A stretch of DNA of 64,000 bases, from contig JNVV01000036.1 of assembly GCA_000733355.1 (NCBI GenBank), positions 139,609 to 203,608 on the forward strand, in the 5' to 3' direction. Shown in pieces: positions 12,483 to 38,289 of the stretch. The stretch comes from Falciphora oryzae. Taxonomy: Eukaryota > Ascomycota > Sordariomycetes > Magnaporthales > Magnaporthaceae. How positions within the stretch are numbered: the first letter of the stretch is position 1; each line of letters opens with the position of its first letter. The notes below the pieces were generated by a model. It had not been told where the DNA came from and did no database searches. It was given only the letters and a program-made list of their open reading frames with translations. The position numbers and the translations under genes are program-made.

Positions 12483-12773
12483 TATATATATATTCATACG
12501 TCCGTTATATTTGTAAAAGACCTCGGTGCCTCTACTATGTAGTATTTTACATGTAAAAACCCTTGAACTCGTCCTCGGGTGCGTATCGCCCCCGCTCCGG
12601 AGCCTGGGAGTAAAAATCATATCTGCTTTTCGTATACGGTCCTGCTATATTAAACAGTGGTACCGTTTGCTTATCTTCATGCAACTGCTCGTAAAGGTTC
12701 CTTCGTAAAAGCGTCCTTATAATTAATGGAACAAAAAAAAATACGTAAAAAAATAAGGGTATGTTGCGCCGGA

Positions 12774-13017
12774 GCAACGCTTCGGTACCGGGTTTCGCCC
12801 TCGTAGCGAAACGGCTGTATTAATACTCGTATTATAGCGTCCTAATGTAGCTTTTCCGCGTAAATTGGCCCGGCTCCGCTCCGGGTCCCAACCGGGGCAA
12901 CGCCTTAATATCGGGTTTCGCCCTCGTAGCAAAACGTTTGTATTGGTACTCGTATTATAGCGTCCTAATATAGCTTTTTCGCGTAAATTAGCCCGGCTTT
13001 ACTCCGGGTCCCAACCG
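12774..13017. repeat. RIPed two-unit repeat near the LINE W 3' end
   Basis: Two units of about 123 bp, the counterpart of 22023-22269, each starting around the GGTTTCGCCCTCGTAGC segment. Presence in both W copies shows the duplication predates RIP of this copy. Confidence 0.65.
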
Positions 13018-13455
13018 CGGGCGGGCCCTCCGGGTCCGGCGTTTTACTTCGTAACTTTAAATAATTCAGCTTTTAATAGGTGCCTGCTTCCGGGGCCGTT
13101 GCTCCGCGTGCGGTTCGGGTCCGCCTTTGTAGCTTGCATTTAATTTTTCTATTAGTTGCTTCCCTTTTTTTTAAATCGCGTTATTTAAGTAACTCTTTTT
13201 TGTTGCTGCGTTATTATACGTTGTAGTTTTTAGTAATAACTTCCTTTTGTTTCCCTCCGGATCCGGGTTTCCACCGGCCTTCCTTTTCCCAACTACAAAA
13301 AGCCCTTTTTCCTTCCTTTCTCTCTCCCTTTCGCTCTTTTTTTTACCACCACTTCCGGTCCTGCCCTTCTGCCCGCGCTTCCTTTTCTCCTACCTGCATC
13401 TAAGTTCCTACTCGCTCGCGCCTCGTTTCCCTTCCGTTTCCTATTCTCCTATAGC

Positions 13456-14866
13456 ATAGCTCCCAAAAATAAAACTCCCAAATCTCCCCGCGGTAGTAGT
13501 AGTAGCGGTCGCGGTAGCAATCCTAACAGCGGAGCTACGGGCGGTAACCGCGCCGTTCCCGCCGCTATAGCTAATAGCAATAGCAATAGTGGTAATAGTA
13601 GTGGTAACAGTAGCAATCGTCCTTTTAATCGCCCTCCGCTTACGGACGAAAACGACGGCGGCTCGGGCGACGGCGTTTAAAACCTTCGTATCAAAGCTGT
13701 AAATGCGGCTTTACCCCGTTCCTTTCCCGGTTTTATAGCTAATTTCCTCTTTTCCTCCCAGCCCTACCGCCTGTACAATTAATCGGAGTACTTACCGGCG
13801 GTTAAAATCTTTAACAACTGCGTCTTTTACGACGATATAGTATATATTTACCGCCCCGCTATCCTTCCTATTCCGCCTCGCTAACTTCCCAATCCTTCGT
13901 GCAAAATATATGTTAGCTGTTTTTAACGTTTCGCTAACGGCATCAACGGTGCTAATGCTATGCGCTGGTGCTACTACAAAGCCTATATGTAGCGCTCTTT
14001 ATCCTGCTTTTTTCCGCTCCGTTTCCGGTTTTGCTAACGTAATAATTCCAACTACCAAAAGCTTCACCTATATGGGCTGCGCTTAGTTTCGTAATGCTTG
14101 CGTTTAAATTTGTCGCTCCCTTTTAGTATCCGCTCGCGATCTCGTCGCTAACGTTTCGTTCCCGTCGCGGTAACCTCCTACTAATTCCAAAAACCAAATT
14201 ACCGTTGTTTTTTGTACCTACTATCGCTATATGCAATCCCTACCCAAAACTAATACGGACCGCGATATTACGTTTGCGGATATCCATATTGTTATTAAAA
14301 TATATACCGCTTTTATTTCGGGCCGCTATTTGTTTTATCCTAACATTTTTTTTTCGTTTTAAATTTGTTATACCGGTTTGAAGTATGCGATTGCCGGATA
14401 TTACCGTATTTTAAAAAATATTTTTGAACGGTCCGGTATTTTTTCCGGCGCTAGGTTTAACCGTTTATTCCCTATCAATTTTAAAAATGCCTTCGCTATT
14501 ATAGCTGCTTTTAATAGTTCGGGTTTAATCCGCTCCCTTTCCGGTAATATAATACCCCCGGGCTAAATTATATTAGGCTAGGCCGAAAGGATCGTTACTA
14601 AATGGAATACGAAAAATCGCACTCGGATAAAAAAACTGGCTTTTAAACGGGCTAAAATACGGGTAGGTATTTTTTTTTCGTTATTATTATCCGCTTTTAA
14701 TCCGCTAACTCCACGGTATTTTTTAAATTTTTTTCGGCAAAACGTTACCGAAAACGTTTTAAATAAAATACTATTGGAATGCCGGAAAACGTTTTTAATA
14801 AGATAAAACGGGATATAAACGATAATAGCTTCCGTTATTATTTTTTTTATTAACCCCCTTTAGTAA
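13456..14866 (+). pseudogene. RIPed copy of the antisense spliced gene of LINE W
   Basis: Aligns base for base with the intact gene at 20164-21584 but on the plus strand. The start ATG is ATA at 13456 and the stop is TAA at 14864. The Gly/Ser-rich N-terminus, the Cys-cluster region and the C-terminal exons can all be followed. Intron branch sites GCTAAC/CTAAC are still visible, for example near 14690, because they lack the RIP target at that position. Many CAR to TAR stops make it dead. Its location, convergent to ORF2, is the same as in the second copy. Confidence 0.8.
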
Positions 14867-14971
14867 TTTTTTTGGTTTTCCCTTTATAGCGGCTCGGTTA
14901 CGTAACGTCGGTATTTACGTAGTTTTTTTTTTCCTTTTCGCTTTTTGGGTATAATATTTTCGTTTGCTTTT

Positions 14972-17360
14972 TTATAGTTTTTTTTAATTCGGTTCGTTCG
15001 TTTTCGGTTTGGTAGCGTTATTTTTCCTTTTTTTTATACGTTTTTTTTTACCTTTTTAACCGCTTTAAAATTTAATAATTTTTTATACGAAATATTATAC
15101 GTACCATTTTTTTAAATAGTATACCCTTTATTTTTTACAATTCGAAATACGCTTTCCGGCTATTTATTTGCGTTAACCCGGTATTTTCCCGCTATTTATT
15201 TTATCGGGCGCATTAAGTTAATACGTATTACGCTATTTCCTTTTATCCGCTACCGCATTCGCATAATAGCGCTACTGCGTTAAATACGCCTTTATTAAAT
15301 AGGAACGAATTTAGCTTTAATTTTTCCGTTTTAATTTAGATTGCTACCAAATTATACGCTTTTGGCATTTTTTCGTAATATTTAACCATTTTTTCCGTAA
15401 ATAAAGGGTTATCCGTTAAGTAAGCGGTTTTATATCGGTTCGCTTTTTTCGCTGTTACCGTCGTATTAGCTATTTTTAATTTCCATTCCATTATTACGTT
15501 AAAATTTTAACGTTTTACGTATTTATATTTGGATTTTCAATTTTTTCCCTAAAAAACGGGTTTTTGTTTCGGTTTTAACGCTATTTTAAACCGGTCCTAT
15601 CGTATTATTTACTTTTTTTTTCGCTTATTCGCTTTAAAAGTAAATCTTTTTTTTCGTTTTTTATAATCGAATTTTTAAAAACGGTCCGTTATTTTCGCTA
15701 TTATTTCGTTAATACGATACGTTATCCCGGTTTTTCCCCATTTATTTTCCGTATTTATAACCTTTTCGTTTAAATATAAATCCAAAAACGGTACGTAAAT
15801 TTTTATTTTAAAATATGCTAACGAAATTATTTTATAAACTTTAACCACTATTTTAAAATATGCTTTTTATTTTTTCGCTATTTCCTTAGCTGCGTCCCGG
15901 AACCAACTTTAAAGTTCCGTTAGTAAATAGTAAATTGCCGTTTTATAAACTAATACGTTGCGGCATACGACCGCGTACAATTGCTTTACGCGTACGAAAT
16001 TGCTTTTTTACGTTACCGCCGCAAATTTTATTACCGTAAATTATTACTATCTTTTTTATTTGCCTTTTGCTTATTTAATATAAACGTTAAAATTTAGCTT
16101 ATAATTTAACCAAATTTTTAAAAATTTCGCCGATAGCGTTAATTGCATTTATATATTTCCGGTACGGACCCGGGTCCGGTTTAAAGTTTTAATAAAATAA
16201 AACAGCTTAATTTTAGCCGCGTTAAATGTTATTTTTATTTTTATTTGCTTATATTTAGTACGTATCCCAAACCCGTTTTAATAACCGGGCGGTTTCCGTT
16301 ATAGTTTTTTTTATTGCTAAAAAGTTAATATTATCGGCGAAATTAACTACCGTTATTTTTAATATTTTTTCCAATTTGTTATAAAATAATGCGATATATA
16401 AAATAAACAATATAAATAAAAGTGGTAAATTTTATAATATTTTTATTATTATTTATATAAACGTAAACAGATCCTTATTAAACCGGAACCGGGCCGTTTT
16501 ATTTATTAGCTAGCTTTTAATTTACCTAATTATTTTTAATAAAATTTTTTATTTTCGTAAAATATCAAAAAGTTTAATATAATTAACGTTATTAAATGCT
16601 TTTAATAGGTCGAATTATAATAGCGAAATTATAGCGCCGTAATTTTACGCCGTTATTATAATATTTATTATTTATTTAATAGCAAATTCGGTATTACGTT
16701 TCCTTTTATTGCTTATTTGCTTTTCCAATAGCAATCCTTTTTTTCCGCCTCGGTTGCGACCCGTATTCCTATTATCGCTTTTATAATTTTGGATATAAAC
16801 GAAAAGAATGCGATCGGTTGCTACCTTTTTATTATTTTTTTATTTTCCGTATTTGTTTTTAATTTAAAAAACATTACCGTTAATGCGTTTCGGAAACGCT
16901 TTAGGAAATATTTAAATTCGAAGCTAGCGTTAGCTATTTTAAATATAACCTTTTTAGCATAATTCCCCGTATGCTTTTAATAATCCGTTCGGTAGGCTAT
17001 CTGCTTTTAAAGGTTTCCAATTCCGATTTTTTTAAAGCCGCTAATATTTCGTTTTTTTCGGGGTTTATTCGGTAGTTAATTAAAAATAAATTAATAAAAG
17101 TATATTTTTTAAACGTAGTATTACTAACGTTTATTAAGTCCGTTTCCGGGTTAAAATAAAATTTAGCTGCTAAAATTGTAGCTTTATTAACGTAAAAATT
17201 CGCTAGCTTTTAATTTCCTTTTTTAAACCGGTTTAAATCCGGTAATTTAATTAGGTTCCGTTTTTTATAGCTTCGTAATTTCGTTTATCGTTCGATAATT
17301 TAAAAAACAAATTCGAAATCCTTTTTTTAACGCTTTTTTAATAAACTTTTTCCAATATGC
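14972..17360 (-). pseudogene. LINE W ORF2 remnant: reverse transcriptase and C-terminal Cys/His region
   Basis: Minus-strand text with RIP stops read as Gln contains the RT blocks LLQFDLLKAFNNVNYIKLFD (about 16650), NLPLLFILFILYIALFY (about 16420) and VVNFADNINFLAI (about 16350), the last equivalent to the YVDDINLL active site with Asp to Asn. The end of the frame corresponds to the ORF2 end at 20059 of W copy 2. The 5' part (ORF1 and endonuclease) is absent because the element is cut at 17368. Confidence 0.78.
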
Positions 17361-17610: not shown

Positions 17611-17770
17611 GTTATTATTAGTAGTATTTTTAATATTACAAATTACATATTGATAATTTAAATTTTCTAGCATTTTCGAGCATCTTCTACCACTTTCTTT
17701 TGCTTATTAATATAAAATCGTATTATTAACTCGATTTTTACCTAAATTATTAATTAATTAATTACTAATA

Positions 17771-18200
17771 ACGTGGTTCACAAGCGAGTGCACCACCCAA
17801 GCGAGTGCAACACGACGAAATCCTATATTGAACGTGTTTTTTAATACCTTTGCTAACTCGGCCAATTTAAGCCCAAATTTAACCAAATTTAACAGGGGTA
17901 TATTTAACTAAATAGAAAATTTAATTTAATTTTCTTAGATTTTTATTATTACCCGTTTAAGCTTAGTTCGTAACACTGTATAATATACTGTGTAAAATAT
18001 GCAAATTAACTTAAAAGGGTAATAATAAAAATGCAACCTAATTAAATTAAATTCGCTATTTAGTTAAATATACCCTTGTTAAATTTGGTTAAATTTGGGC
18101 TTAAATTGGCCGAGTTAGCAAGGGTATTGAAAAACACGTTCAATATGGGATTTCGTCGTGTTGCACTCGCTTGGGTGGTGCACTCGCTTGTGAACCACGT
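17771..18200. mobile_element. pogo-related foldback MITE, 430 bp
   Basis: Nearly the whole element is an inverted repeat with arms of about 190 bp around a centre near 17985. The ends read ACGTGGTTCACAAGCG and are flanked by TA (17769-17770 and 18201-18202). The ends resemble the pogo terminal repeats at 4759 and 9813, so a pogo transposase probably moved it. A second member is at 44042-44469. No coding capacity. A transcript would fold into a long hairpin. Confidence 0.9.
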
Positions 18201-18201
18201 T

Positions 18202-18563
18202 ATTATAAATTATATATTAATAATCTAAATATTTTAGCATTATCTAGTAATTTCTATGAAATTCTTTTCGATTCCATGCGATTCTCTATATTATAAATCC
18301 AATTTAATTTATAATTTTATATTATTAATTTAACATACATTACGAAATTTGCTTATAAATCCGAATATTAATTACTAATACGAAGAAACTTCTAGAAATT
18401 TAAATTGAAGTATAAATAACCGTCGAATTTCCCACCGTATTAACAGATATTTCCTTTTGGTTTTTTTAACTACACAAATAACAAATACACTTTATTTTAT
18501 TATTTACTTTTTAACCCAATTATATTATTTTTATTATTTCCATTAACATATATACCGTTAAAA
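18202..18563. other. AT-rich region between the two hAT genes, probable promoter region
   Basis: No gene. It lies between the divergent zinc-knuckle gene and the transposase start, so it should hold the promoters of one or both. No specific box can be singled out from the AT-rich background. Confidence 0.4.
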
Positions 18564-19756
18564 ATGGAATATACTCCTTTTTATTCGCAATTAACCACTT
18601 CAACTAATAGTATTATTTCAGATAATAATTCCGATAATAATTCCGATAATAATTCCGGTAATAATAATTTAAATAATGAACAAAATTATAAAAATTCGCT
18701 TTATAATCAGCCAGATTACGTTTTACCAGCTGCAAAAGATACAAAAACTTATATTTTTAAAAATAATTTATTTACACTTACTCTTTTACCTATAAATACG
18801 GAAAAAGAACGACAGTTTATTATACAATGCACTACGTGCAAATATAAAAAAATCGAAAATATTTCTAAATTTCAATCGTCGAATTACGCAAGGCATTATA
18901 AAATAAGCCACCCGAATATAGCTTATAATAAATCTAGTGAAAAAAACTAGGCAAAAAAAATTAAATCCAACTCCATCACCAATAATAACATCGTTTTTAT
19001 CAGATAAATTAACGGATAATCGAAAACGACACGGCAAAATACGATTTTAACAGATTTTAACGATGCGGATGCATATAAAAAAATATTATGGTTTATAATT
19101 GATAATAATTTATCTTTTAATATAGCAGAATCGGAATCGTTTACCGATTTACTTAATTATTATAACAAAATATCACCTATAATCAATAGAAAAAAATTGA
19201 AATTAATATTAAATAACATATATAATGAATATCTATCGTTATTTAACGATGAAATGCGATTACATATCGAAAATAACGGAAAATTTAATATAACTTTCGA
19301 TATTTGGACTTCCAAATTACTGGAAATCAATATTTTGGAATTATAATAATATTTATTAATTCTGATTTTAAAATAAATTATAAAATAATTGGATTTGAAG
19401 AAATTGGTAATATAACCCATACGGGTGAAAATTTATATTTAGAATTTAATAATATAATTAAAAAAAATCCTTTTATTAATAGCGATAATATTTTATCAAT
19501 TACCCGTGATAACGCTAGCAATAACGATACATTTATTAATTATTATACGGAAAATAATCAAAGCTATTTTTATAATATTCGTTGTACGGCTCATATATTA
19601 AATTTGGTTGCAAAAGACATTTTACGGGATTTTTTAAATAATACCGATAATAACGACAATAATAACATAACGGCTAGAATTCGTAAAATTATAACAATTT
19701 TAAAATATAATAACGAACCAAAACAGCTTTTAATAGAAGGAATTAATAAATATAAA
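18564..19756 (+). pseudogene. hAT transposase, N-terminal half, copy 1
   Basis: ATG at 18564. After an Asn/Ser-rich repeat region (SDNNSDNNSDNNSGNNN) comes a BED-type zinc finger (CTTCKYKKIENISKFQ, then H-x4-H around RHYKISH). Further on come the hAT core motifs FDIWTSK, NQYFGI, ITRDNASNND and RCTAHILNLVAKDILRDF. Compared with copy 2 there is an extra A near 18940, a small indel near 19035 and a missing base at about 19311, which break the frame. Coding stops at GINKY where LINE W copy 2 is joined. The frame by chance continues into the LINE, giving a hybrid open frame to 20059. Confidence 0.85.
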
Positions 19757-20059
19757 ACGCCACTGTGCGAGTGTGGCAGCGGACAAAGGGAAACAGCGTG
19801 GCACGTATTAACCCAATGCGCCCGATGGGACAGGCAGCGGGAAGGCACCGGGCTGGCGCAAGCAGACAGCCGGAGAGCGTACTTCGAGCTGTGGGAAACA
19901 GGGGGCACACCGTTCAAGGAAGTGGCACGCATGATGTTTCGCACAGGAAGACTATTAGATTTCAGGGCGGCTAAAAAGGCAGAGAGAGAACGCATAAGGA
20001 GAGAAGAGGAAGAGCAACGCTACCGAGCCGAGAACGAACCGAACCAGAGAAGACCATAA
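19757..20059 (+). pseudogene. LINE W ORF2, C-terminal 100 residues
   Basis: The frame TPLCECGSGQRETAWHVLTQ, then CARWDRQREG, is the Cys/His motif found after the RT domain in Tad1-like LINEs. It ends with an acidic/basic tail (AAKKAERERIRREEEEQRYR) and TAA at 20057-20059. It lacks endonuclease and RT because of 5' truncation, so it is inert by itself. Its stop is 104 bp from the stop of the convergent spliced gene. It is fused in frame to the hAT transposase fragment upstream. Confidence 0.8.
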
Positions 20060-20163
20060 AAAAGCAAACGAAAGCACCATACCCGAGAAGCGAAAAGGAA
20101 AAGAAAACCACGCAGACACCGGCGCCACGCAACCGAGTCGCTACAGGGGGAGAACCGAGGAAA

Positions 20164-21584
20164 CTACTGAGGGGGGTTGGCAGGAGGACGACGACGGAGG
20201 CCATCATCGTTCATATCCCGCTTTATTTCATTGAAAACGTCCTCCCGGCATTCCGACAGTATTTTGTCGAAAACGTCCTCGGTGACGTTTTGCCGAAGGG
20301 AAACCTGAAAGATACCGTGGAGTTAGCGGACTGGAAGCGGACAGCAAAAGCGAAAAGACAAACACCCACCCGTATCTTGGCCCGCTCAAGAGCCAGCTTT
20401 TCCATCCGAGTGCGATTCTCCGTGCTCCACTCAGCAACGATCCTCTCGGCCCAGCCCGACATGGCCTGGCCCGGGGGCACCATGTTACCGGAGGGGGAGC
20501 GGACCAGACCCGAACCACCAGAGGCAGCCACAGCAGCGAAGGCATTCCCAAGACTGGCAGGGAACGAGCGGCCAGACCCGGCGCCGGAAGGAATACCGGA
20601 CCGCTTAAGGATGTCCTTCGAAACACGGCAATACCCGGCGATCGCATGCTCCAAACCGGTGTGGCGAGCCTGGAAGGAAAAGAAATGTCAGGACAGGACA
20701 GATAGCGGCCCGGAACAGAGGCGGTACACACCTTGGCAGCAGCATGGACATCCGCAGACGCAGCATCGCGGTCCGCACTGGTTTTAGGCAGGGACTGCAT
20801 GTAGCGATGGTGGGCACGAAGAACAGCGGCAACCTGGTCCTCGGAACCAGTGGGAGGCTACCGCGACGGGAACGAGACGTTAGCGACGAGATCGCGAGCG
20901 GATACCAAAAGGGAGCGACCAACCTGAACGCAGGCACTACGCGATTGAGTGCAGCCCACACAGGTGAGGCCTTTGGTAGCTGGAATTACCATGTTAGCAA
21001 GACCGGAAACGGAGCGGAAAAGAGCAGGATGAGGAGCGCTACACACAGGCTTTGTAGTAGTACCAGCGCACAGCACCGGCACCGTTGATGCCGTTGGCGA
21101 GACGCTGAAGACAGCTAACGCACATTTTACACGAGGGATTGGGAAGTTAGAGAGGCGGAACAGGAAGGACAGCGGGGCGGCAAACATACACCATGTCGTC
21201 GTAGGAGACGCAGTTGTCGGGGACCTCGACCGCCGGCAAGTACTCCGATTGACTGTACAGGCGGTAGGGCTGGGAGGAAAAGAGGAAGTTAGCAACAAGA
21301 TAGGGAGAGGAACGGAGCAGAGCCGCACCCACAGCTTTGACACGAGGGTCCTGGACGCCGTCGCCCGAGCCGCCGTCGCTTGAGCCGCTGCCGTCGTTCT
21401 CGTCCGCAGACGGAGGGCGACTGCGAGGACGACTGCCACCGCCACTACCACCACTACCACTGCTACTAGCTGCAGCGGCGGGAGCGGCGCGGCCACCGCC
21501 CGTGGCTCCGCTGCCGGGATTGCCACCGCGACCGCCACCACCACCACCGTGGGGAGATTTGGGAGCTTTATCTTTGGGAGCCAT
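20164..21584 (-). CDS. intron-containing antisense gene in the LINE W 3' region (340 aa, Gly/Ser-rich, Cys cluster)
   Basis: I do not recognise a named family. On the minus strand seven exons join in frame: 21584-21333, 21269-21190, 21114-21047, 20979-20924, 20857-20732, 20669-20370 and 20304-20164. The six introns are 62-75 nt, all GT...AG, each with CTAAC (CTGAC in intron 5) before the acceptor, as in ascomycete genes. The sum is 1023 nt, 340 residues plus TAG. Residues 1-84: MAPKDKAPKSP start, then a Gly/Ser/Asp-rich low-complexity region. Residues 104-150: C104, C112, C140-x2-C143-x6-C150, resembling half of a Zn2Cys6 cluster. Residues 153-340: predicted helical, charged, ending RRRPPANPPQ. 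Intron 2 has the least certain acceptor. Role unknown; a nucleic-acid-binding or regulatory protein is a guess. A RIPed copy is at 13456-14866. Confidence 0.82.
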
Positions 21585-21690
21585 GCTGCAGGAGAATAGG
21601 AAACGGAAGGGAAACGAGGCGCGAGCGAGCAGGAACCTAGATGCAGGCAGGAGAAGAGGAAGCGCGGGCAGAAGGGCAGGACCGGAAGCG

Positions 21691-21738
21691 GTGGTGAAAA
21701 GAGAGCGAGAGGGAGAGAGGAAGGAAGGAAAGAGGGCC
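21691..21738 (-). promoter_or_regulatory. CT-rich tract upstream of the spliced antisense gene
   Basis: On the minus strand this is a long C/T run (CTTTCCTTCCTTCCTC-type) about 105-155 bp before the ATG. Pyrimidine tracts just upstream of the transcription start are common in highly expressed filamentous-fungal genes. The RIPed copy keeps a CT tract at the matching place (about 13310-13345). No TATA box could be assigned with confidence. Confidence 0.45.
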
Positions 21739-22022
21739 TTTTGTAGCTGGGAGAAGGAAGGCCGGTGGAGACCCGGATCCGGAGGGAAACAAAGGGAAGT
21801 CACCACCAGAAACCACAACGCACGACAACGCAGCAACAAGAAAGAGTCACCCAAACGACGCGATCCAAAAAGAGGGAGGCAACCAACAGAAAGATCAGAT
21901 GCAAGCCACAGAGGCGGACCCGAACCGCACGCGGAGCAACGGCCCCGGAAGCGGGCACCCACCAAAAGCTGAATCACCCAAAGTCACGAAGCAAAACGCC
22001 AGACCCGGAGGGCCCGCCCGCG

Positions 22023-22269
22023 GCTGGGACCCGGAGCAGAGCCGGGCCAACTCACGCGAAGAAGCCACATCAGGGCGCCACAACACGAGTACCAACACAA
22101 ACATTCCGCCACGAGGGCGAGACCCGACACCAAGGCGCTGCCCCGGTTGGGACCCGGAGCGGAGCCGGGCCAACTCACGCGGAAAAGCCACACCAGGACG
22201 CCACAACACGAGTACCAACACAGCCGTTTCGCCACGAGGGCGAGACCCGGCACCGAGGCGCTGCCCCGG
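22023..22269. repeat. two-unit 123-bp tandem repeat near the LINE W 3' end
   Basis: Units 22023-22145 and 22146-22268 align throughout (both contain GGGACCCGGAGC and CACAACACGAGTACCAACAC). For the antisense gene this lies 440-690 bp upstream of the ATG and could be regulatory; for the LINE it is in the 3' UTR and could be an RT recognition feature. The duplication is also present in RIPed copy 1. Confidence 0.85.
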
Positions 22270-22563
22270 CGCAACACACCCTCATTCCCTTACGTACTTT
22301 CCTTTTGTTCCACTGATCACAAGGACGCTTCCACGACGGAACCCTTACGAGCAGTCGCATGAAGACAAGCAGACGGTACCACTGTTCAACACAGCAGGAC
22401 CGTATACGAAGAGCAGACATGGTTTTTACTCCCAGGCTCCGGAGCGGGGGCGACACGCACCCGAGGACGAGTTCAAGGGTTTTTACATGTAAATACTACA
22501 TAGTAGAGGCACCGAGGTCTTATATAGACATAACGGTAGTATGAATATATAATATATATATAT

Positions 22564-23782
22564 AATATTTATTAATGCCTTCGGTTAAAAGCTTTTTTGG
22601 TTCGTTACTATATTTTAAAATTGTAATTATTTTACGAACCTTTGCAATAATATTATTATTATCGTTATTATTATTATTATTTAAAAAATCACGTAATATA
22701 TCTTTAGCCACTAAATTTAATATATGGGCAATGCAACGAATATCGTAAAAGTTACGTGTAATATTTTCGTTATAATAATTTATAAAAATATCGTTATTAC
22801 TTGCGTTATCCCGCGTAATAGATAAAATATTATTATTATTAATAAATGGATATTTTCTAATAATATTATTAAATTCTAAATATAAATTTTCGCCAGTATG
22901 GCTTATATTACCAATTTCTTCAAATCCGATTAATTTATAATTTAATTTAAAATCGGAATTTATAAATATTAAAATAATGCCAAAATATTGATTTCCAGTT
23001 ACTTTGGAAGTCCAAATATCAAAAGTTATATTAAATTTGCCGTTATTTTCGGTATGCAATCGCATATTATCGTTAAATAACGAGAAATATTCATTATAAG
23101 TATTATTTAATACTGTTTTTAATATTTTAGTATTTATAATTGGGGAAACCCTATTATAATAATTTAGCAAATCGGTAAATGAATCCGATTCTATTATATT
23201 AAAAAATAAATTATTATCAATTATAAACTATAATATTTTTTTATATGCATCCGCATCGTTAAAATCTGATAAAATCGTATTTTGCCGTTGTCGTTTTCGA
23301 ATTCCGGTAGAAAAGGACGATATTATTGGTAATTGGGCGGTATTTTGCCTTTTAACCCTCGTTTTTTCACTTGCTTTATTATAAGCTATATTGGGATGTT
23401 TTAATTTATAATGCCTAGAATAATTAGACGTTTGAAATTTAGATATTTTTTCGATTTTTTTATAGCTGCATATAGAGAATTTTATAATAAATTCACGCTC
23501 TTTATTAATATTTATTGGCAAAAGCGTACGCGTAAATAAATTATTTTCAAATATATACATTTTACTAGCTTTACCGGTAGGTAAAACGTAATCCGGCTGG
23601 TTATAAAGGGAGTTTTTATAATTTATATCGCTATTGGAATTGTTACTGGAATTATTGCCGGAATTATTATCGGAATTATTATCGGAATTATTACTGGAAT
23701 TATTAATATATTTAGAATTATTATCCGACGTAAAACTATTCGTTAAATCGGTTATTTGTGAATGTAACGGATTATCCTCCAT
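22564..23782 (-). pseudogene. hAT transposase, N-terminal half, copy 2
   Basis: ATG at 23782. An Asn/Ser-rich N-terminus is followed by the BED-type finger (CSYKKIEKISKFQTSNYSRH) and, after one stop at 23229-23227 (TAG where copy 1 has TGG), by the hAT core: FDIWTSKVTGNQYFGI, ITRDNASNND, IRCIAHILNLVAKDILRDF. Without that stop the frame is otherwise open to the break at GINKYY, the same codon as in copy 1. The C-terminal dimerisation half is missing. AT-rich codon use (many AAT, AAA, ATA) is intrinsic to this hAT family rather than a RIP effect, since CA dinucleotides remain. Confidence 0.87.
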
Positions 23783-24293
23783 TTTTAATGTTAATAAAGG
23801 TTGATGTAAGTGGTAAAAATAAAGTAATAAAGGTGTAAATGTAATAATAAAATAAATTGTAGGGGTTTTTGCGTTGCTATTAAAACGGAAAAAAAATCAG
23901 CAGTAAGGTGGGAAACTTAACGTTTATTTATATTCTAAACTTAATTTCTAGAACTTTCGACGTATTATAAATATAAAATTATATTTATAAGCAAATTGCA
24001 TAATTTAAATTAACTTAATAATATAATATTACAAATTAAATTTAATTTGTAATATAATTTAATGCATAGAATTAAAAAGAATCGTGTGGAATTTGCTAGA
24101 AATTGCTAGAAAATTTGGATTACTAATACTTAATTTGTAATAATAATTAATAATAAATAATTATTATTAGTAATATATAAAAATCTCGCATTATTAATAT
24201 ATTTATATATTAGTAAGCAATAGAAAGTGTTAGAAATTTCTGGAATTTTCGTATTATTAATACAATATTTACGTAAAATACGTTAAAATACGT

Positions 24294-24307
24294 GCATTTT
24301 ATTAATA
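24294..24307. repeat. 14-bp target-site duplication of the chimeric LINE insertion
   Basis: GCATTTTATTAATA at 24294-24307 is repeated at 31542-31555. The sequence on both outer sides belongs to hAT copy 2. Confidence 0.85.
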
Positions 24308-24747
24308 TATAGATTTATTTACCCTTTTCGACTTCTATAAGCCATAGGGAGTGTCTGCTAATCTAGGTAATATTGGGATAAAAACCGTACCTCCGGTGTT
24401 ATAACCGTTTTAATAAAATCGGGTAAAAAGGTCCCGTCGAACTACTAGCGAATCCTTTTCGTATGCTTATTTGTTAAAATACGGTCTCACTATCGTACTT
24501 CCAATGTTAATAAAAAAGAAAGTATATCGGTCGACGCGGGGTATCGGGGTATGGTCCTGGAGTCGTATCGGGGTAGTCGCTCGGTCGGTTCGGTCGGTCG
24601 TTATTTTTTTTTATCGTTCCTTCCAAATTCGGCCAACCTCCTCGTGCCTTCCCTTTATTAACGCCGGTACCTTACCCAATATCCCACGCTTTTTTTCCTT
24701 CGCGATTTTTAATCCTTTTTAATTTTTAATAATAACAGCTTAAAGCA

Positions 24748-25740
24748 ATGCGATCCGGTACGTTTTCCCTACCTTCCGCGACCTCGCAAACCCCTTTAAC
24801 CCTCCTTAACAACGCGCTGCCGTCCCTAGTACTCCATTGCGACCTCCCATATACCTATCGAATACGCGCAATGCTAAAGCGCAATTCTTTTCCTCCCTTT
24901 TCGCCCGCGGGCCGGAAGCGCCGCAAAAAGCGCCGTTTATAAGTTCTTTTTTTCGTTAAAGCGTTTTTACGGCTTTTCGTTAACCCTTCCTAATGTCCTA
25001 GCCGGTAGCAAAAGTTGCGGCATTTGCTTCCGTATAATAGCTAACGATTTTTCTCCCGATCGCCATTATATCCAAAATACCAGTAAATTATGCTTCCGTT
25101 TTCCTTTTTTCCCATTTTCCGATACCCTTTTAATATTTATATTTAACTAAATTCCAAATCCAAAAAATGCGTTTATTGCTGCTTTAAAAAAAAAGCTAGC
25201 AAAAACGGTCGGTGTATTTTTGCGGATAAAAAAACCGCGTCGAAATCCGGTATAGCTTTTAATAAAACCGCCGCGATTTTATTAAAAATCCGTAACGATT
25301 TCGAAAATTGCAACGCCTTTTTTAATTTTCGCAAATAGCGGGCTTAAACTAGCGCTTTTAAAGGCCGTAATAAAAATGTAGGTTTTTTTTTGTTTTTTTT
25401 TTCGTTTTCCCGGATACGTAGCTAATACATTTTTAAAATTGGGGCGTTTAGCTTAAAACCGAAAAAAAGGCCGCTTATTAGGCGTTTAAAAACGCTTATA
25501 AGGCATACGCCCCTGCTGGTTCGCAAGTTCCTTTCCGTTACCTTACGGTTAATCCGAACGTTGTTTAAGCGCGTTGTAACTTAGCTTCTAGTTTCTTTTT
25601 TTACGGTATTAAAATTTAATTCGAAATAACTTAAAAAGTAACGATAGCGGCGATAACGGTAATTCCGACGATATTAGTAACCCGCTAGCAAGCAGCGGTA
25701 AAAACGCGTAAAGGGGTTTTCGGGTTTTTTTCGATCTTCC
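24748..25740 (+). pseudogene. RIPed antisense Cys-rich gene in the LINE Z 3' region, copy 1
   Basis: Plus-strand exon-like text from MRSGTFSLPSATSQ to AGRKRRKKRR, an intron ending CCTAG near 25009, then a Cys-containing stretch (SKSKKCVYC, then NGRCIFADKKTASKSGIAFN near 25160-25250), and a Ser/Asn/Asp-rich part (SNDSGDNGNSDDISN near 25640). The inverted copy at 38290-39490 has the same order and a better preserved intron. Convergent to LINE ORF2, which ends at 26042. Exon limits other than that one intron cannot be fixed because of RIP. Confidence 0.6.
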
Positions 25741-26041
25741 GACGGATTGGTTTATTTCTTTTTTTCCCGGTTTTTTTTTCGGTTAGCTTTTTTGGGGGGG
25801 GTTGGCGCTTTCCGGGTATTAGCTTATAAGTTTCCGTTATTTAAATAACGGGTAGCGCCCTCGCGTTAAAGTTAAATAAACCGTAGGTAATCGTTTAATT
25901 TTAGCTTAATTCCTTTATTGCGTCCCGTTTATTTCTTTTTGTTTTCGCCGAAGCTTTGCGTAAAGGTTGGGTTAGGTTATATATTAGTTATTGTAATTGT
26001 AGTTCGTAATCGTAAGGCTTTTTTAACGAAATCCTTTAGGT

Positions 26042-29000
26042 TTAATTTTTTAAAGCCGGGGTTGCGATAACCCCTTATCCCTTTTTAAAGTTCGCCGCTT
26101 CGTTACGGCGTTCCTTTTTTTATTTCCTTTTTTTTTCCTCCTTTTTTTTTAATCCATTCGTTTATAATATTTGCGGATAAAGCGTAATTTGGGATACGTT
26201 TTATCCGTAAAAACCACCGAATTACTTTCGCCGCCTCCTTTTAGCGGTTTAGCGTTAACGTTATTGCTTCCGACATTATTTGTAACAACGTTACTCGTTT
26301 TTCGCGAAAGCTAAAGCAATAACCCAATACGTAAGCGACTATTTCCGGGAATTACCCGCAAAAACATTCCGCGTTTACTTCTGGAACTTGCTTCGACGCT
26401 AAATAGCTTTTTAGCCCCAACCGTTCCGTACGTAATTGGATTAATAAAAAGCTTTCGGTTTTATATAGGTTTCGGTAAAATAGCAGCCTTTTTTCGCTTA
26501 GCTCCCCTTTATTCGCTTTTGCCTATCGTTTCGTACGGGCTGCGTACCTTTTCTATTGCTCCTTTTATTCCTTTTCGATAGCTTTTTCGGGGGGTTGGTT
26601 TAGTATCCAATTGGTTGCTTTTTCGCGTTTGCGTGTTTTTTTAAACGTCGTTACGGATTGTCGCTTTTTCGTATTTTTTAGTTTTTTTTTTACGCCTTTA
26701 TATGCTTTTTCCATTTTTTCCGCCATTTCGTTACTTCGTAATTTCCTTTCGAAATAAGCGATTCGTTCGTTTAATTAAATGTTAATTAGCGCTACGTATA
26801 TTTTTACTTTTAATAGCCTTTATAATATGCCTTTATATGTTTCAATCGTTTTTTTTAAGCATTCGTTTTGCATTTTCGCTTACGTTTTAACTACCCCTTT
26901 AGGTTTTTATAAGTTCCCGTTAAATTCGTAATACGCGGGGGCTGCGAACCCTAAAACCGCTTTAATTACCGCCAAATATAGGTATTTGGTTTTAATAAAC
27001 GTAGGTTTTTAAGTGGTCGCTATAAAGCGTATAAAAAATAGCTTTTAATGTTTTATTTTGTCGTATATTTTCCGTATATGTTAGGTTTATTCCAATTTGG
27101 AATTAATTTAAAGGCTAAAAATTCGGACGCCTTTTTCGGTTTTTTTCGGCTTTACGGTAACCTCCCCGAAACGTAACGGGAGGGTAGGGGGTAATTTCCG
27201 TTTTTTAGTTAGCTAAATAAATTAATATTTGCTTAGGTCGAATTTTGCTCCGAATTTGGTAGCTTATTTAATGTATACGTTATATGTTATGTTAAGTTTT
27301 TTTATTGCGTTGGTCGCGTTACAGTTGAAGCTAATTAGGTTAATATTATTCGCGAATCCTATCGATGTTACCCCTTTTACTTCGCGGAAGCTTTTGTACA
27401 GTTTTGCGGTATAAAGGATAAATAGGATAGGGGAAATTGGGGAGCTTTATAGGATTCCGCAAAGTATTTTTAACGTTTTAATATCTTCGCCGTCGAAATG
27501 GAAAGATATTTTCCTTCCATTTAAAAAGCTTTTTAGCAATTACAATAGCTATAGTAGGTATCCGTATTTTTTAAGCTCGTCCAATAGGCGTAAATGCGAT
27601 ACCGTATCGAAAGCGCCGCTAATATTAAAGGATAAAAACCTTACTATTGCTTTCGCGTCCCAAACTATATTAACTATATCCGTAAAAAGGCGTATAGTTA
27701 TTTCCGTCGATTTATTTTATCGGTTTCCTATTTATTCGTTAGGGAGTAGCTAATATTTTTTTGTTATATCTTTTATGCGGTTTGCTAAAATCTTTTTTAA
27801 AACCTTCCCTATAGTTTCCAATAAAGCGATCGGCTTCCAAACTCCAATTATACTAGGGTTTTTATCGGGTTTTTGCAAAATAATAATACGAAACCGCTGG
27901 AACCTCGCGGGGAAGTAGCCGTAGTCCATGCACGCGGTAAACAGCTCCGCTATAGCCGTAAACAAAGCGGGTCCCATTATTAGTAAATTTCCGTTTAGGA
28001 TACCTGTTAGCTTTAATGCCTTCCATGGTCCGGTTTTTCGCAAAACCTTTTCCACGTTTTCCGCGGATACCCTTTAGCGAACTTTTAATAGGGTAACGTT
28101 TATAAAAAGGTCGTCCGGAACGTTTAAAACGTCGGCTATAAACGTCGGGAAAAATTTCGCCTTTAAAGCTTTTTTTTGGTTTACCGGGTTGCCGTAACCC
28201 TTCCGCCCCCTAATTTTAACGTTGGCAAAGAAAAGGGCGGTAAAGGTTTGTGGCTTTTTTTTTTTTACCCATTTGGCGATCGTTTATATGCTTTTAGCGT
28301 TTTGTTTTTTGCTTGTTTCGTGCATAGCGGTACGCTACGTATACCTTTTTGCTATTTTAATAGCTTATTTTTTTCTTTTCGTTAATTCCCTTATTAAAAC
28401 TTTAGCTATATCGGTACGGTTTCGCTTCCATTCCTTTTCGGCTTCGTATTTTTCGCAAAATAGCTGTAAAATCTCCTCGGTTTACCAATTGCAGCTTCCG
28501 GGTTTATTTTTCCGCTTTAAAACGGTAAAATCTTTAATTTCCAATATAGCTTTAATTAATTCGTCCATTTGATCGTTAATTGCTTATAAATCGCTAAAGG
28601 GTCGGGTTAATTTGGTTATACGAACTACCGCTAAATTTTTCGCGTTTTTTTTATCGATTTTTTTCTAATTCCACCTCTTTTTTTTAGGGGTTTTTAATTA
28701 AGGACTTAACCTTTAAATTATAGTTATAATCCCCGCGTGGTTGCTACCCTTTTGCTTCCATTTCGCAAATTCCGTTATAGCTAGGTTATTTGTAACCTAC
28801 GCTAGGTTTATCGTTATATCCTTATAACGTAGTGCGGATTTCGTTAGGAAATCGCGGCGGGTTAACAAATGCATATTTTATGCTTTTGTTAGCCCTAATA
28901 GCTTTGCAACTCCTGCGTGCATTAAAAGCTCTTTTTTTTTCCGGGATATCCAAAGGTCGTAATATAGGTTAAAATCCCTTACTATTAAATTATAGCTTTT

Positions 29001-29600
29001 GGGGTATTTTTTTACGAAGTTGTCGATAAAGGTAACCTAATTTGTTATTATAGTATTCCCCGGTATTGGTAAATAAACCGACCATATTATAATGTTTTTT
29101 TTTTTAGTGCCAATAGTAACTCGACACTAATCCGGTTTCGCTTCGTAATTTAATATACGTAGCGTAAACCTAACGTAAATTATTATGCGTACGGGTTAAA
29201 GTGGTAGTAAGGGGGGAAGGGAGGGGGAGGGGGCTTGCTCCCTTTCCTCCTTAGGGGAAGGTGATGTTACTTCGCCGTAAGGTCGTAGCGTTGGCGTTTG
29301 TTGGTATTGGATAATCTTTATTCCTACCCAGGTCGGGCATTTCGTTTCCCTTTTGCCGTTTTTTAGTAGCTCCTAAATCGCTAATACGTTAAAGCGACCG
29401 CTTTTTGCCAATAACGCGTTTAATACCTTTATTTTCCTTCCTATATTCCATTATAAAACCTCGAACTTTATATAATATCTATAATAGTTATATCTTTTTC
29501 GCTTTCGGGGTATATGTTTTCGGGGGTTTTTTCGACCTTTTTACGGAATTATGTTATCGGTAATAGGGGTTCACTTTGGCTTAACTTCGGTAATACTGTT
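26042..29600 (-). pseudogene. LINE Z ORF2 remnant, copy 1 (endonuclease, reverse transcriptase)
   Basis: Minus strand. The segment 28055-27750 is open and reads KTGPWKALKLTGILNG, GYFPARFQRFRIIILQKPDK and PIALLETIGKVLKKILANR, the N-terminal part of a LINE RT. The rest matches the inverted copy at 34560-37984 in order. Stop at 26044-26042. Numerous CAR to TAR stops. The upstream part (to about 30370) corresponds to the end of ORF1. Confidence 0.8.
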
Positions 29601-30370
29601 TTTAATGGGAAAAGTAATATTGGGGTAGCTAGGGGTCCTAAGGTTTTCGGCGTCCCCGGGGATTGGGACACGCGGGGTCTTTTCGAAGGTATTTTCGGTT
29701 TTTAGCTGCGGAAAAAGGAAAGGATCGCGGCGTTATTGTTGTTTGCTTTAAAGGTTTTTCGTAGCCTGCCTACCGGCCTTCCCGGGGATCTGCCGGCATT
29801 TTTAAAAAAGTTTTTTTTTCTTTTTATAAAGGAAGGGGGTCGCGGCGACGTTTGTTCTAGCTCGCTTACGTCCCTTTGTTAGGCTAGTTCCGGGGTCTCC
29901 GGCGCGTTTCCTCGGCTTGGTGTAAGGGTTTACGGGGTTTCCGCTACCGGCTCCGTCGGTATAGCTTTTTAGTATTCGGCCGGGGTAGCTTCTTTTTCCA
30001 AATGGTAAAGTTTTTTATTAAATACGAGGGTTACCCCTAATGCTTCGCCGCGACCTTTTTGGATGCGTCGCTTATACCATTTGTTGAGGTGGTTTCCTAA
30101 AAAGGCCTTCCTTTTTTCGTAGGTTTCGAGTCCTTCGACGTAAGCGTCGGCCTACCGAGTCCCCGCGTCTACCTTTTCCATAAATGGGATCCTATCCTTT
30201 ATTTGGGAAAGCTTTTGCTTTATTACCGGGTCCTATCTTTTTTTCCCTTATAGGTCCGGCGTAGGGGGTAAAGGGGCTCGCGGCGACTTCGGCGGCGGGG
30301 TCGGTTATTTCTCGAAATGGGTTAGGCGTATAAACCATGCGTCTCTTCTTTTTTATTGCGCTTGTTTCCT

Positions 30371-32291: not shown

Positions 32292-34500
32292 ATGCCACCC
32301 CAAGGCGACGTCGCGGCGCGGATGGAAAAGGCTTTTAGCCTCGCCCATTTGCAACACGCGTCGCGCACCGAAAACACCCCAAACAACCCAACGCAACCCC
32401 GAAAAAAACCATCCGTAAGCTCGAATCGACCCAAACCTATCCAAAAAACGATGAACTACGCAAAAACGTACTTCCAATCGCTTAATAAAAAAGAAAAAAA
32501 AACTACGGCCGCTACAATTATCGCGAACCTCGTACGACACCTCGAAACGACCGGAACGACCACCGCGACCCCGACGACTACGATTATCGACCCCGACGCG
32601 ACTTAAACGATCCTAAAATCCTTCGAGCGAATCGAATTAACGATTAAAAAAAAAATGCATACGACGCATAACATTTAACCCGCAAAGGGGGCCGGGAAGC
32701 TAACCTAGGCCCAAATTGCAGCAAAGGCTTAAGGAGCTCCCCCCGGGGGCCCGGCGATAGCGAAAAAAACAACTGCGCTTCCAATCGATAATAAAGTTTT
32801 CACTATCGAAAAAAAGGCATTAATTAAAAAAATGGCCCCGGGAAAGATCCTTTAAATGTGTAACACCACGTTAGGTCGCGAATGGGTTAAAACGGCCCAC
32901 TAACACTTATCGGGAAACATACGCCTGCATTTTAGGGACGCCGAAATTAAAAAAAAAAAGCGGAAAAAAAAAGCCGAAAGGTATCGGAAATGCGGCGGCG
33001 ACGGGACCGCGACCAAACGCACGAATGGAAAGCAATGGACCACCCAAACGACCTGGCAGAACATTACGAGCCCTACTTTTAGTACGCGCTTTTCGTAGCC
33101 CTTCCAAAGGGCCCGTAGCACGCTAACCGTTTAAAGCTTAAAAGACCAACGATTACGATGGTGGCGACGGGTTTACTTACGACGTCCTTTCGACCCCTCC
33201 TAAACGATAACGGGAAGGCGGAAACCGGATCGGATTTGGTAAAAACCTTGCAAAAAAACAATAAAACGGACGCGATTAGCCGTATAATGGTAGCGGCGTA
33301 AAAGCGGCGAAATAACAAACCCACTATAGCAGCCTTTATCCAACTAACGAATTTCGAAGGGGTAAACCGCCTTTAAAAGAACTACTTTAAATAGGACGGC
33401 GCGACGTACCAATGCCGTCCTTTCGACCCCGAATTCGCTACCGCCCAATGCTTCAAATGCTAGAACTGGGGGCATAAAAGCCCCTAATGCAAGCTTAATA
33501 TCGCGTGCGTTTAATACGGATTAAAAAAATACGACGATAAATAATGCGAAAAAAAAAAGGAAACCGCGGCGAAGTTTCTAGGAAATATTAACGAAGCCTT
33601 TTATATCCCATGCAATAAAACAAAGCACCCGTCCTACTATTAAAAATGCCTAATCAGGAAATAAGCGCAACAAAAAAAAAAAAACGCATGGCTTATACGC
33701 TTAACCCATTTCGAAAAATAACCAACCCCGCCGCCGAAATCGCCGCGAACCCCTTTACCCCTTACGCCGGACCTATAAGGGAAAAAAGGATAAAACCCGG
33801 TAATAAAACAAAAGCTTTCCCAAATAAAAAATAAAATCCCATTTATAAAGGTAAACGCGGGGATTCGGTAAGCCAACGCCTACGTTAAAAAATTCGAAAC
33901 CTACGAAAAAAGGAAGGCCTTTCTAAAAAAACTACCTTAATAAATAGTATAAACGACGCATTTAAAAAGGTTGCGGCGAAGCATTAAAAGTAACCCTCGT
34001 ATTTAATAAAAAACCTTACCATTTGGAAAAAAAAGCCACCCCAGCCGAATATTAAAAAGCTGTACTAACGGAACCGGTAACGGAAACCCCGCAAACCCCC
34101 ATACCGAACCGAAAAAACGCGCCGGAAACCCCGGAACCAGCCCAATAAAAGGACGCAAACGAACTAAAACAAACATCGTTACGACCCCCTTTTTTTATAA
34201 AAAAAAAAAAAAACTCTTTTAAAAATGCCGGCAAATCCCCGGGAAAGCTAGTAAATAGGCTACGAAAAACCTTTAAAACAAACAACAATAACGCCGCGAT
34301 CCTCTCCTTCTTCCGCAGTTAAAAACCGAAAACACCTTCGAAAAAACCCCGCGTATTTCAATCCCCGGGGACGCCGAAAACCCTAAAACCCCTAACCACC
34401 CCAATATCACCCTCCCTATTAAAAACAATATTACCGAAATTAAATTAAAATAAACCCCTATTACCGATAACATAATTCCGCAAAAAGGTTAAAAAAAAAC
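32292..34500 (+). pseudogene. LINE Z ORF1 remnant with CCHC knuckles
   Basis: An N-terminal open stretch begins at 32292 (MPPQGDVAARMEKAFSLAHL). In a different frame, at 33430-33640, a typical Tad-type knuckle array can be followed: AQCFKC-NWGHKSP-CKLNIACV, then DK-C and a further NKTKHPSYY-KC block, with Gln codons turned to stops. A Pro/Thr-rich tail follows. The frame change between the two parts shows at least one indel. The start codon and total length are uncertain. Confidence 0.65.
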
Positions 34501-34559
34501 CCCGAAAATATATACCCCGAAAGCGAAAAAGATATAACTATTACAAACATTATATAAAG

Positions 34560-37500
34560 TTCGAAATTTTATAATGGAATATAGGAAAAAAAATAAAGGT
34601 ACTAAACGCGTTACTGGCAAAAAGCGGTCGCTTTGACGTACTAGCGATCCAAAAGCTACTAAAAAACGGCAAAAGGGAAACAAAATGCCCGATTTAAACA
34701 AAAATAAAAATTATCCAATACTAACAAACGCTAACGCCACGATTTTACGGCGAGGTAACATCACCCTCCCTTAAGGAAAAAAAAAAATAGGCCCCCTCCC
34801 TTTCCCTTCCCCTTTTACCACCACCCCGACCCGTACGCATAATAATTTACGTTAAATCCACGCTACGTATATTAGATTACAAAACGAAACCGGATTGGTA
34901 TCGAGTTATTATCAGCACTAAAAAAAAAACATTACAATATGGTCGGTTTATTTACTAATACCGGGGAGCATTATAATAACGAACTGGGTTACCTTTATCG
35001 ACGACCTCGTAAAAAGATACCCCAAAAGCTACAGCTTAATGGTAAAGGATTTTAACCTATATTACAACCTTTAAATGTCCCGGAAAAAAAAGGAGCTTTT
35101 AATGCACGTAGGAGCTGCAAAGCTATTAGGGCTAACAAAAGTATAAAATATGCACTTATTAACCCGCCGTAACTTCCTAACGAAATCCGCACTACGTTAT
35201 AAGGATATAACGATAAACCTAACGTGGGCCACAAATAACCTAACCATAACGGAATTTGCGAAATGGGAGCAAAAAGGTAACGACCACGCGGGGATTATAA
35301 CTACAATTTAAAAGCTAAGCCCTTAACTAAAAACCTTTAAAAAAAAAAGTGGAATTGGAAAAAAATCGATAAAAAAAACGCGAAAAATTTGGCGGCAACT
35401 CGCATAACCAAATCAACCCGACCCTTTAGCGACCTATAAGCGATTAACGATCGAATGAACGAATTAATTAAAGCTATATTAAAAATTAAAAATTTCACCG
35501 TCTTAAAGCGGAAAAACAAACCCGGAAGCTGCAATTAATGGACTAAGGAAATTTTACAATTACTTCGTAAAAAATACGAAGCCGAAAAAAAATGGAAGCG
35601 AAACCGTACCGACGTAGCTAAAGTCCTAATAAAGGAATTAACGAAAAAAAAAAACAAGCTATTAAAATAGCAAAAAGGTATACGTAGCGTACCGCTATAT
35701 ACGAAACGAGCAAAAAATAAAACGCTAAAAGCATATAAACGATCGCTAAATGGGCAAAAAAAAAAAAAGCCACTAACCCCTACCGCCCTTTTCCTTACCA
35801 ACGTTAAAGCTAGGGGGCGGAAAGGTTACGGCGACCCGGTAAACTAAAAAAAAAGCTTTAAAAGCGAAATTCTTCCTAACGTCCATAACCGACGTTTCGA
35901 ACGTTCCGAACGACCCCTTTACAAACGCTACCCTATTAGAAATTCGCCGAAAGGTATCCGCGGAAAACGTAAAAAAGGTTTTGCGAAAAACCGGATTATA
36001 AAAGGCACTAAAGCTAATAGGCATCCCAAACGGAAGCCTATTAGCAATAGGACCCGCTTTATTTACGGCTATAACGGAGCTATTTACCGCGTGCATAAAC
36101 TACGGCTATTTCCCCGCGAAATTCCGGCGGTTTCGCACTATTATCCTATAAAAACCCGACAAAAACCCTAATATAATCGGAACTTAAAAGCCGATCGCTT
36201 TATTAGAAATTATAGGGAAAGTTTTAAAAAAGAATTTGGCAAACCGCATAAAAAACACAATAAAAAAGTATTAGCTACTTTTTAACGAACAAATGGGAAA
36301 CCGATAAAATAAATCGACGGAAATAACTATGCACCTTTTTACGGATGTAATTAATATAGTTTAAAACGCGAAAGCAGTAATAAAGCTTTTATCCCTCGAT
36401 ATTAGCGGCGCTTTTAATACGGTATCGCATTTACGCTTATTGGACGAGCTTAAAAAACACGGATACCTATTATAGCTATTGCAATTACTAAAAAGCTTTT
36501 TAAATAAAAGGAAAACATCCCTCCATTTTAACGGCGAAAACATTAGAACGTTAAAAGTATTTTACGGAATCCCACAAAGCTCCCCGATTTCCCCCATCCT
36601 ATTTATCCTTTACACCGTAAAGCTATATAAAAGCTTCCGCGAAATAAAAGGGGTAATATTAATAAAATTCGCGAACGATACCAACCTAATTAGCTTCGAC
36701 CGCAACGCAATTAACGTAATAAAAAAACTTAATATAGCATATAACGTATGCATTAAATAAACTACCAAATTCGAAGCAAAATTCGACCTAAGCAAATACT
36801 AATTTATTTAGCTAACTAAAAAACGAAAACCACCCCCTACCCTCCCGTTACGTTTCGGGGAAATTACTATAAAACCGAAAAAAACCAAAAAAGGCGTTCG
36901 AATTTTTAGCTTTTAAATCGATTCCAAATTGAAATGGACCTAACATATACGGAAAATATACGATAAAATGGAATACTAAAAGCTATTTTTTATACGCTTC
37001 GCAGCGACCATTTAAAAACCCACGTTTATTAAAACCAAATACCTATACCTAGCGGTAATTAAAGCAGCTTTAGGGTTCGCAACCCCCGCGTACTACAAAT
37101 TCGACGGGAACTTATAAAAACCTAAAGGGGTAGCTAAAACGTAGGCGAAAATGTAAAACGAATATTTAAAAAAAACGACCGGAGCATATAAAAATATACT
37201 ATAAAAGCTGTTAAAGGCAAAAACATACGTAACGCCAATTAATATTTAATTAAACGAACGAATCGCTTATTTCGAAAGGAAATTACGAAATAGCGGAATA
37301 GCGGAAAAAATCGAAAAAGCATATAAAGGCGTAAAAAAAACTCTAAAAAATACGAAAAGGCGACAATCCGTAACGACGTTTAAAAAAATACGCAAACGCG
37401 AAAAGGCAACCAATTGGATACTAAACCAATCCCCCGAAAAAGCTATCGAAAAGGAATAGAGGGAGCAATAAAGAAAGTACGCAGCCCGCACGAAACGATG

Positions 37501-37984: not shown

Positions 37985-38289
37985 ACCTAAAGGACCTTGT
38001 TAAAGGAGCTTTACGATTACGAACTATAATTATAATAACCAATATATAACCTAACCCAACCTTTACGCGGGGCTTTGGCGAAAATAAAAAAAAGTAAACG
38101 GGATGCAATAAAAAAATTAAGCCGAAATTAAACGATTATTTACGGCTTATTTAACCTTAGCGCGGGGGCGCTACCCGTTATTTAAAGTAACGGAAATTTA
38201 TAAGCTAACACCCGGAAGGCGCTAACCCCTTTTAAAAAAGCTAGCCGAAAAAAGAACCGGGAAAAAAAGAAATAAATTAGTCCGTTAGA

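Follow-up and report, generated by a model that had tools for sequence, protein, structure and literature searches.

LINEs are usually seen as one- or two-gene elements with passive 3' tails. The 64,000-nucleotide stretch of Falciphora oryzae DNA analysed here at its full length (the window) raises the question of whether such an element can carry, over the long term, an additional gene that is interrupted by introns and read from the opposite strand. A preliminary description of the window had placed a spliced gene of this kind, in antisense orientation, in the 3' region of a LINE. We consider it probable, at roughly two chances in three, that a LINE clade of F. oryzae carries its own gene of about six introns, downstream of and convergent with ORF2, and that this gene would encode a spliced, trans-acting accessory protein; the proposal is drawn from sequence comparison.

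A predicted seven-exon gene on the minus strand

Positions 20164-21584 of the minus strand contain a predicted gene of seven exons with a frame of 340 codons, in which the phases agree at all junctions. All six introns have a GT donor, a CTAAC or CTGAC branch site and an AG acceptor. The six introns of 62-75 nt, seven exons, 340 residues and matching phases of the preliminary description are all present on this strand, as are the Gly/Ser-rich head and the C-x2-C-x6-C cluster that it reported, and the cluster is also kept in a second LINE lineage (C89, see below). The features of the gene are as follows.

21727..21746, minus strand: TATA-like CTACAAAAGG, 162 bp upstream of the ATG, with the beginning of a pyrimidine-rich tract
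20164..21584, minus strand: the antisense gene as a whole, spliced to 340 codons, from the ATG at 21584 to the stop codon at 20166-20164
21333..21584, minus strand: exon 1, Gly/Ser-rich head; the second-family counterpart is much shorter and poorly conserved
21270..21332, minus strand: intron 1, 63 nt (64 nt in the L046 homologue, with GTAAGC..CTAAC..TAG)
21190..21269, minus strand: exon 2
21115..21189, minus strand: intron 2, 75 nt in the present model; acceptor uncertain
21047..21114, minus strand: exon 3
20980..21046, minus strand: intron 3, 67 nt
20924..20979, minus strand: exon 4, coding for C-x2-C-x6-C
20858..20923, minus strand: intron 4, 66 nt
20732..20857, minus strand: exon 5
20670..20731, minus strand: intron 5, 62 nt
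20370..20669, minus strand: exon 6, source of the strongest matches
20305..20369, minus strand: intron 6, 65 nt
20164..20304, minus strand: exon 7

The splice choices are not unique: as many as 75,168 splice combinations leave the frame open, and the exact exon boundaries therefore depend on how the second family compares, rather than on the window alone. Given so many combinations, the open frame by itself is weaker evidence than it looks.

The element carrying the gene is a LINE

The placement of the gene in the 3' region of a LINE holds for the full copies of the element, which have the CCHC knuckle, the endonuclease and the reverse transcriptase (RT); the copy in the window is truncated and lacks the RT. 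The parts of the element in the window are listed here.

19757..22556, plus strand: LINE copy truncated at the 5' end, comprising the 3' 2.8 kb of the 7.74-kb element and nested within AT-rich remnants that match DUF659 weakly
19757..20059, plus strand: C-terminal remnant of LINE ORF2
22016..22270, no strand assigned: 123-bp repeat present twice in the LINE 3' region, on the upstream side of the antisense gene
12483..15271, minus strand: another copy of the 3' part of the same LINE, degraded by RIP, with a remnant of the antisense gene

Alignments of the window copy with other copies start at 19757, the point of its 5' truncation, and stop near 22551-22556, and the stretch between 19757 and 22556 has a GC content of 0.589 in AT-rich surroundings; no clear target-site duplication was seen at this copy. 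The antisense stop lies 104 bp from that of a convergent plus-strand frame ending at 20059. Here the preliminary description was right about the distance to the convergent ORF2 stop, and its frame has to be amended, as the open frame ending at 20059 begins outside the LINE, in AT-rich DNA that matches DUF659 weakly (E=0.00028).

This match and a further one (E=0.0018) fall short of the Pfam curated cut-off, and both are located in the flanks. DUF659 is linked to hAT DNA transposons, and we considered whether a DUF659 transposon might include both the antisense gene and the frame that stops at 20059; this was rejected, the matches being in the flanks and the gene within the LINE ends. The AT-rich DUF659-like remnants on either side of the LINE copy (18200-19753 and 22565-24143) are 78% alike and inverted with respect to each other.

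Searching the 50.2-Mb genome of the same fungus with positions 20060-21700 gave at least 45 matches with identities from 76% upwards, at least 26 of which, the window's own included, cover the whole query; scoring covered the best 40 of 79 first-look candidates, which makes these copy counts minimum values. Family copies compared with their flanks have a common 3' end and staggered 5' ends. Three full copies give an element length of 7.74 kb, and in all three the ORF1 CCHC knuckle (C-x2-C-x4-H-x4-C) was found, with an in-frame stop inside in one. By eye, target-site duplications are seen at these three copies, one with a mismatch, and the 3' tail consists of TA units. The longest ORF2 frame (L011:527-3724, 1,066 aa open) matches RVT_1 (E=1.7e-38), Exo_endo_phos (E=4.6e-15) and Exo_endo_phos_2 (E=4.8e-15), and a further copy (L014) matches RVT_1 with E=1.3e-22. 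An RNase H domain, which occurs in many Tad1-clade members, had no match in a domain search of L011:527-3724 and 3725-4030. Self-comparison of the three full copies gave no terminal direct repeats, and they are not LTR elements. With its RT, endonuclease, CCHC ORF1, common 3' end and target-site duplications, the element is a LINE, although its copy in the window has no RT.

Variation within the window family

In an alignment of 35 rows (the window copy, the second window copy and 33 others), the differences consist almost wholly of transitions, with C-to-T changes mainly at CpA and CpT. For the 34 rows set against the window copy, C-to-T rates are 0.37-0.43 at CpA, 0.31-0.39 at CpT and 0.04-0.11 at CpC and CpG, a mutation that we class as RIP-type from its pattern. 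It strikes CpT nearly as often as CpA, unlike a pure CpA preference. The window copy is the only one of the 35 rows without an in-frame stop, and the only one in which all twelve splice dinucleotides are intact.

Because differences within the family are almost all RIP-type, dN/dS at this level is uninformative. Only shared transversions escape the effect, and these are few: counting those found in at least two rows, there are 4 per 398 intron bases (one of them, at 20676, at an indel-prone site) against 3 per 1,023 coding bases (two of these are synonymous and the third falls in the Gly/Ser head), a contrast that is suggestive only. The Gly/Ser head also has a 9-nt insertion in three rows and one of 6 nt in a fourth. 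In two places (L015 and L040) the matches begin at the same point, corresponding to window position 20259 within exon 7.

The alignment also bears on the second intron. Its acceptor, AG in the window copy, is GG in 9 of the other 34 rows, and several of these nine carry few mutations; the junction of intron 2 and exon 3 is accordingly uncertain by about 4 residues. It is likely that the AG of the window copy is a RIP change from GG. Use of an alternative acceptor about 10 nt downstream would leave out about 4 residues, among them a Cys common to the C89 protein.

A homologous antisense gene in a second LINE lineage

Distant exon-6 matches were obtained by a six-frame protein search of the same genome, in which 119 of 205 candidates were scored. 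The C89 element belongs to a separate LINE lineage, with EN and RT domains and an ORF2 that is colinear with that of the window family and identical to it at 440 of 722 residues (61%). An antisense gene homologous to that of the window (L046:1451-206, minus strand) follows this ORF2 in the same convergent place. Between the window and C89 genes, 124 of 250 aligned codons give the same residue (50%), and the six introns have matching positions and phases (0,2,1,0,0,0), the window model having guided the choice of the C89 splice sites. The C-x2-C-x6-C cluster is present in both proteins, and the C89 antisense copy contains in-frame stops. Both genes also have in common a TATA-like CTACAAA followed by a pyrimidine tract, 162 bp upstream of the ATG in the window and 166 bp upstream in L046.

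Comparison of the two lineages by NG86 gave dS 1.46, dN 0.50 and a ratio of 0.34 for the antisense gene (246 codons), and a ratio of 0.15 for ORF2 (703 codons). For the antisense gene, the bootstrap 95% range of pN-pS is -0.37 to -0.19. Differences fall at codon positions 1, 2 and 3 in the numbers 103/78/144 of 250 (p=1.4e-8), and transversions only in the numbers 64/47/73 (p=0.023). These values support purifying selection on the predicted gene between the two lineages. The preliminary description had named selection among copies as a check on the gene, which is thus informative between lineages and, under RIP-type mutation, uninformative within the family. Since the second lineage has a homologue in the same convergent position, with matching introns and signs of purifying selection, we regard the gene as part of the LINE.

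Alternative accounts of the antisense gene

A gene of this kind might have been captured once from the host, by antisense transduction, and carried since as a passenger without benefit to the LINE, an account that we consider unlikely. The introns and the promoter-like site do resemble those of an ordinary fungal gene, and copies of the element without the gene exist. In one of these (C98, L060), a stretch equal to about window 20074-21880 is missing, that is, the whole gene together with the promoter-like site, and the same deletion junction occurs at at least three places (L060 in C98, C69:43416-44276 and C69:70521-71381) among the best 40 scored of 159 first-look candidates. One of the three adjoins an RT, lying behind that at C69:41814. 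The gene-less derivative has evidently multiplied, by retrotransposition or duplication, and with the whole gene absent at three places the gene would not be needed in cis. When 61 antisense exon-6 places, among the matches listed, were set against 123 RT rows from this one genome, 76 RT rows had no antisense partner. Fifty of them are below 49% identity and appear to be largely other families; 22 are at 54% or more, 2 of which are accounted for by the deletion derivative, and a separate gene-less lineage among the related LINEs is possible.

What the passenger account does not explain is that the gene has kept its position through the divergence of ORF2 to 61% identity, and that it appears constrained. 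Nor was a clearly separate host gene found among the own-genome places listed; the homologues seen so far are not confined to host genes unlinked to LINEs, which is part of what would have told against the preliminary description. A protein-database search with the window and C89 antisense proteins gave no homologue among the best 7,996 and 7,995 candidates scored, respectively. The database does include fungi, since an RT control matched 205 of its proteins, the names shown including Corynascus and Chaetomium; transposon genes that are spliced or broken may escape such a search. Capture is possible as the origin of the gene, and it is the passenger status that the data speak against.

Somewhat less probable again is that the minus strand yields only a spliced antisense non-coding RNA, which would pair with the LINE RNA and act in RNA silencing or regulation of the element, with an incidental frame. 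Such molecules are documented: in Blumeria hordei, spliced minus-strand lncRNAs from transposons are reported, without meaningful peptides, and in the available sections of that report the eight amplified examples are Ty1/Ty3 elements or intergenic, not LINEs (PMC10648671). Convergent transcription in a layout like the present one would, moreover, give double-stranded RNA. However, a non-coding transcript predicts neither the codon-level selection indicated between the lineages (pN<pS, with position 3 changing fastest) nor a frame conserved over six junctions.

Far less credible is an independent mobile gene that inserted repeatedly beside LINEs. Convergent RT on the opposite strand within 4 kb was found at 44 of the 61 listed antisense places, which, together with the homologue behind ORF2 in the second lineage, bears out within this genome the association proposed in the preliminary description. 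The spacing is near constant, at 2082-2092 bp in 29 of the 44 pairs, and an opposite-strand RT on the wrong side occurs at 0 of the 61. Two of the 61 have a same-strand RT within 4 kb, one being the window copy beside a degraded RT of 46% identity. In favour of an independent gene are the 17 listed places without convergent RT within 4 kb, including three cut inside the antisense gene and without the ORF2 end (L015, L028 and L040). Yet of the 11 such places that were read with their flanks as their own locus, 7 retain the whole 303-bp ORF2 end, as 5'-truncated LINEs should (one further place has broken pieces and three have none), and these 7 are best classed by sequence as 5'-truncated LINEs; the gene also lies inside the alignable ends of the LINE.

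Finally, a chance frame in GC-rich DNA, seemingly spliced through flexible splice choices, draws on the 75,168 open combinations but is barely tenable beside the homologous protein with matching introns in the second family and a dinucleotide-shuffling control on region 20060-21800. Of 200 shuffled versions of each strand, one from the minus strand and none from the plus strand gave a spliced path from ATG to stop of 340 aa or more (longest real paths: 385 aa on the minus strand, by a different model with 4 introns, and 195 aa on the plus strand).

A possible accessory factor supplied in trans

In our preferred account, that of a gene belonging to the LINE, the antisense gene would be transcribed from its own promoter at the LINE 3' end, and the spliced mRNA would yield a protein of about 340 residues, with a shorter head in the second family. 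This protein would have a low-complexity head, a Cys cluster potentially able to bind zinc and a charged C-terminal part. Retrotransposition would leave the introns in place, since it copies the RNA of the opposite strand, on which they are not introns. Since 5'-truncated dead copies often keep the whole gene, along with the promoter-like site, the protein could be supplied in trans. Its most likely role would be that of a nuclear accessory factor, not strictly needed in cis, that aids the LINE through nucleic-acid or chromatin binding or through anti-silencing. That the spliced opposite-strand gene is a dedicated trans-acting factor, for example a zinc-binding protein of the nucleus that opposes genome defence and that dead copies keep supplying, is a more specific suggestion which we put forward tentatively.

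Domain searches did not place the protein in a known family. The preliminary description's proposed profile search of the Cys cluster gave no Pfam or PDB family above noise: the window protein had no Pfam match, the C89 protein and a fragment had Pfam matches of E=0.09-0.2 only, below the cut-offs, and four PDB matches of the window protein (E=0.26-0.98) were taken as noise. Kinship with DUF3716 (PF12511), suspected from the Cys pattern, was not supported, as neither spliced protein matches the model, and most of eight DUF3716 stretches read in this genome show a different, six-Cys layout. This Cys-rich domain has 28 matches in the genome, 24 of them above the Pfam cut-off.

Comparison with other retrotransposons

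The closest analogy is with the aORF-3R class of plant elements (maize Grande gene23, rice RIRE2, Silene Retand), in most copies of which an additional antisense gene follows pol; an own promoter is reported for gene23, and a nuclear product of unknown function is also reported (PMC7264820). These are LTR retrotransposons, whereas the present element is a LINE without long terminal repeats, and the word 'intron' occurs 0 times in the available main text on aORF-3R (PMC7264820), in contrast to the six introns predicted here. The likeness is by analogy and concerns the antisense layout only, while by membership the present gene would be a LINE component. Among fungi, brtn is an additional antisense gene of the gypsy retrotransposon Boty of Botrytis cinerea, as reported in PMC7264820, PMC8365987 and PMC4227169. 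Both Boty and the present element are fungal retrotransposons with an antisense extra gene, likened here by description, but Boty is an LTR element. The original paper on brtn is reportedly that of Zhao et al. 2011.

Among LINEs, human LINE-1 has ORF0, a short, primate-specific antisense reading frame in the 5' UTR. The present gene shares with it the antisense orientation within a LINE, but lies at the 3' end, is predicted to have seven exons and is convergent with ORF2. In bdelloid rotifers, additional ORFs are common to different lineages of Terminons and of ORF3-bearing LTR elements (PMC5408684); these are other element classes, and the available sections of that work describe no convergent multi-intron gene.

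Most likely, then, the gene would encode a trans-acting accessory protein and have its counterpart in the antisense genes known from LTR retrotransposons, although its carrier is a LINE, it is predicted to be multiply spliced, and its function is inferred. A literature search confined to open-licence papers gave, in titles and the starts of abstracts, no LINE with a convergent spliced gene, and the antisense gene is apparently a lasting and undescribed accessory part of these LINEs. A conserved multi-intron convergent gene would show long-term carriage of an intron-bearing gene on an RNA-based mobile element, and, if true, intron-bearing cargo can be carried by a retrotransposon simply through reverse orientation. 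It also suggests that accessory proteins serve some LINEs, as they do retroviruses and certain LTR elements. Since copies that have the gene and copies that lack it occur naturally, its role could be tested directly.

Other repeats in the window

Two copies of another LINE family occupy 24300-30370 and 33656-39932, with an RT 44-46% identical to that of C89; tblastn found no antisense gene in these two copies. Directly adjoining this family, 195 bp at 39913-40107 share 93% identity with the final 200 bp of the window LINE. A 6.4-kb inverted repeat (45429-51795 and 57635-64000, 94% identical) has long open frames, for example 48972-51827 (951 aa). At 17743-18227, 485 bp match their own reverse complement at 88%, and relatives of this stretch are found near 44040-44471 and next to several LINE copies.
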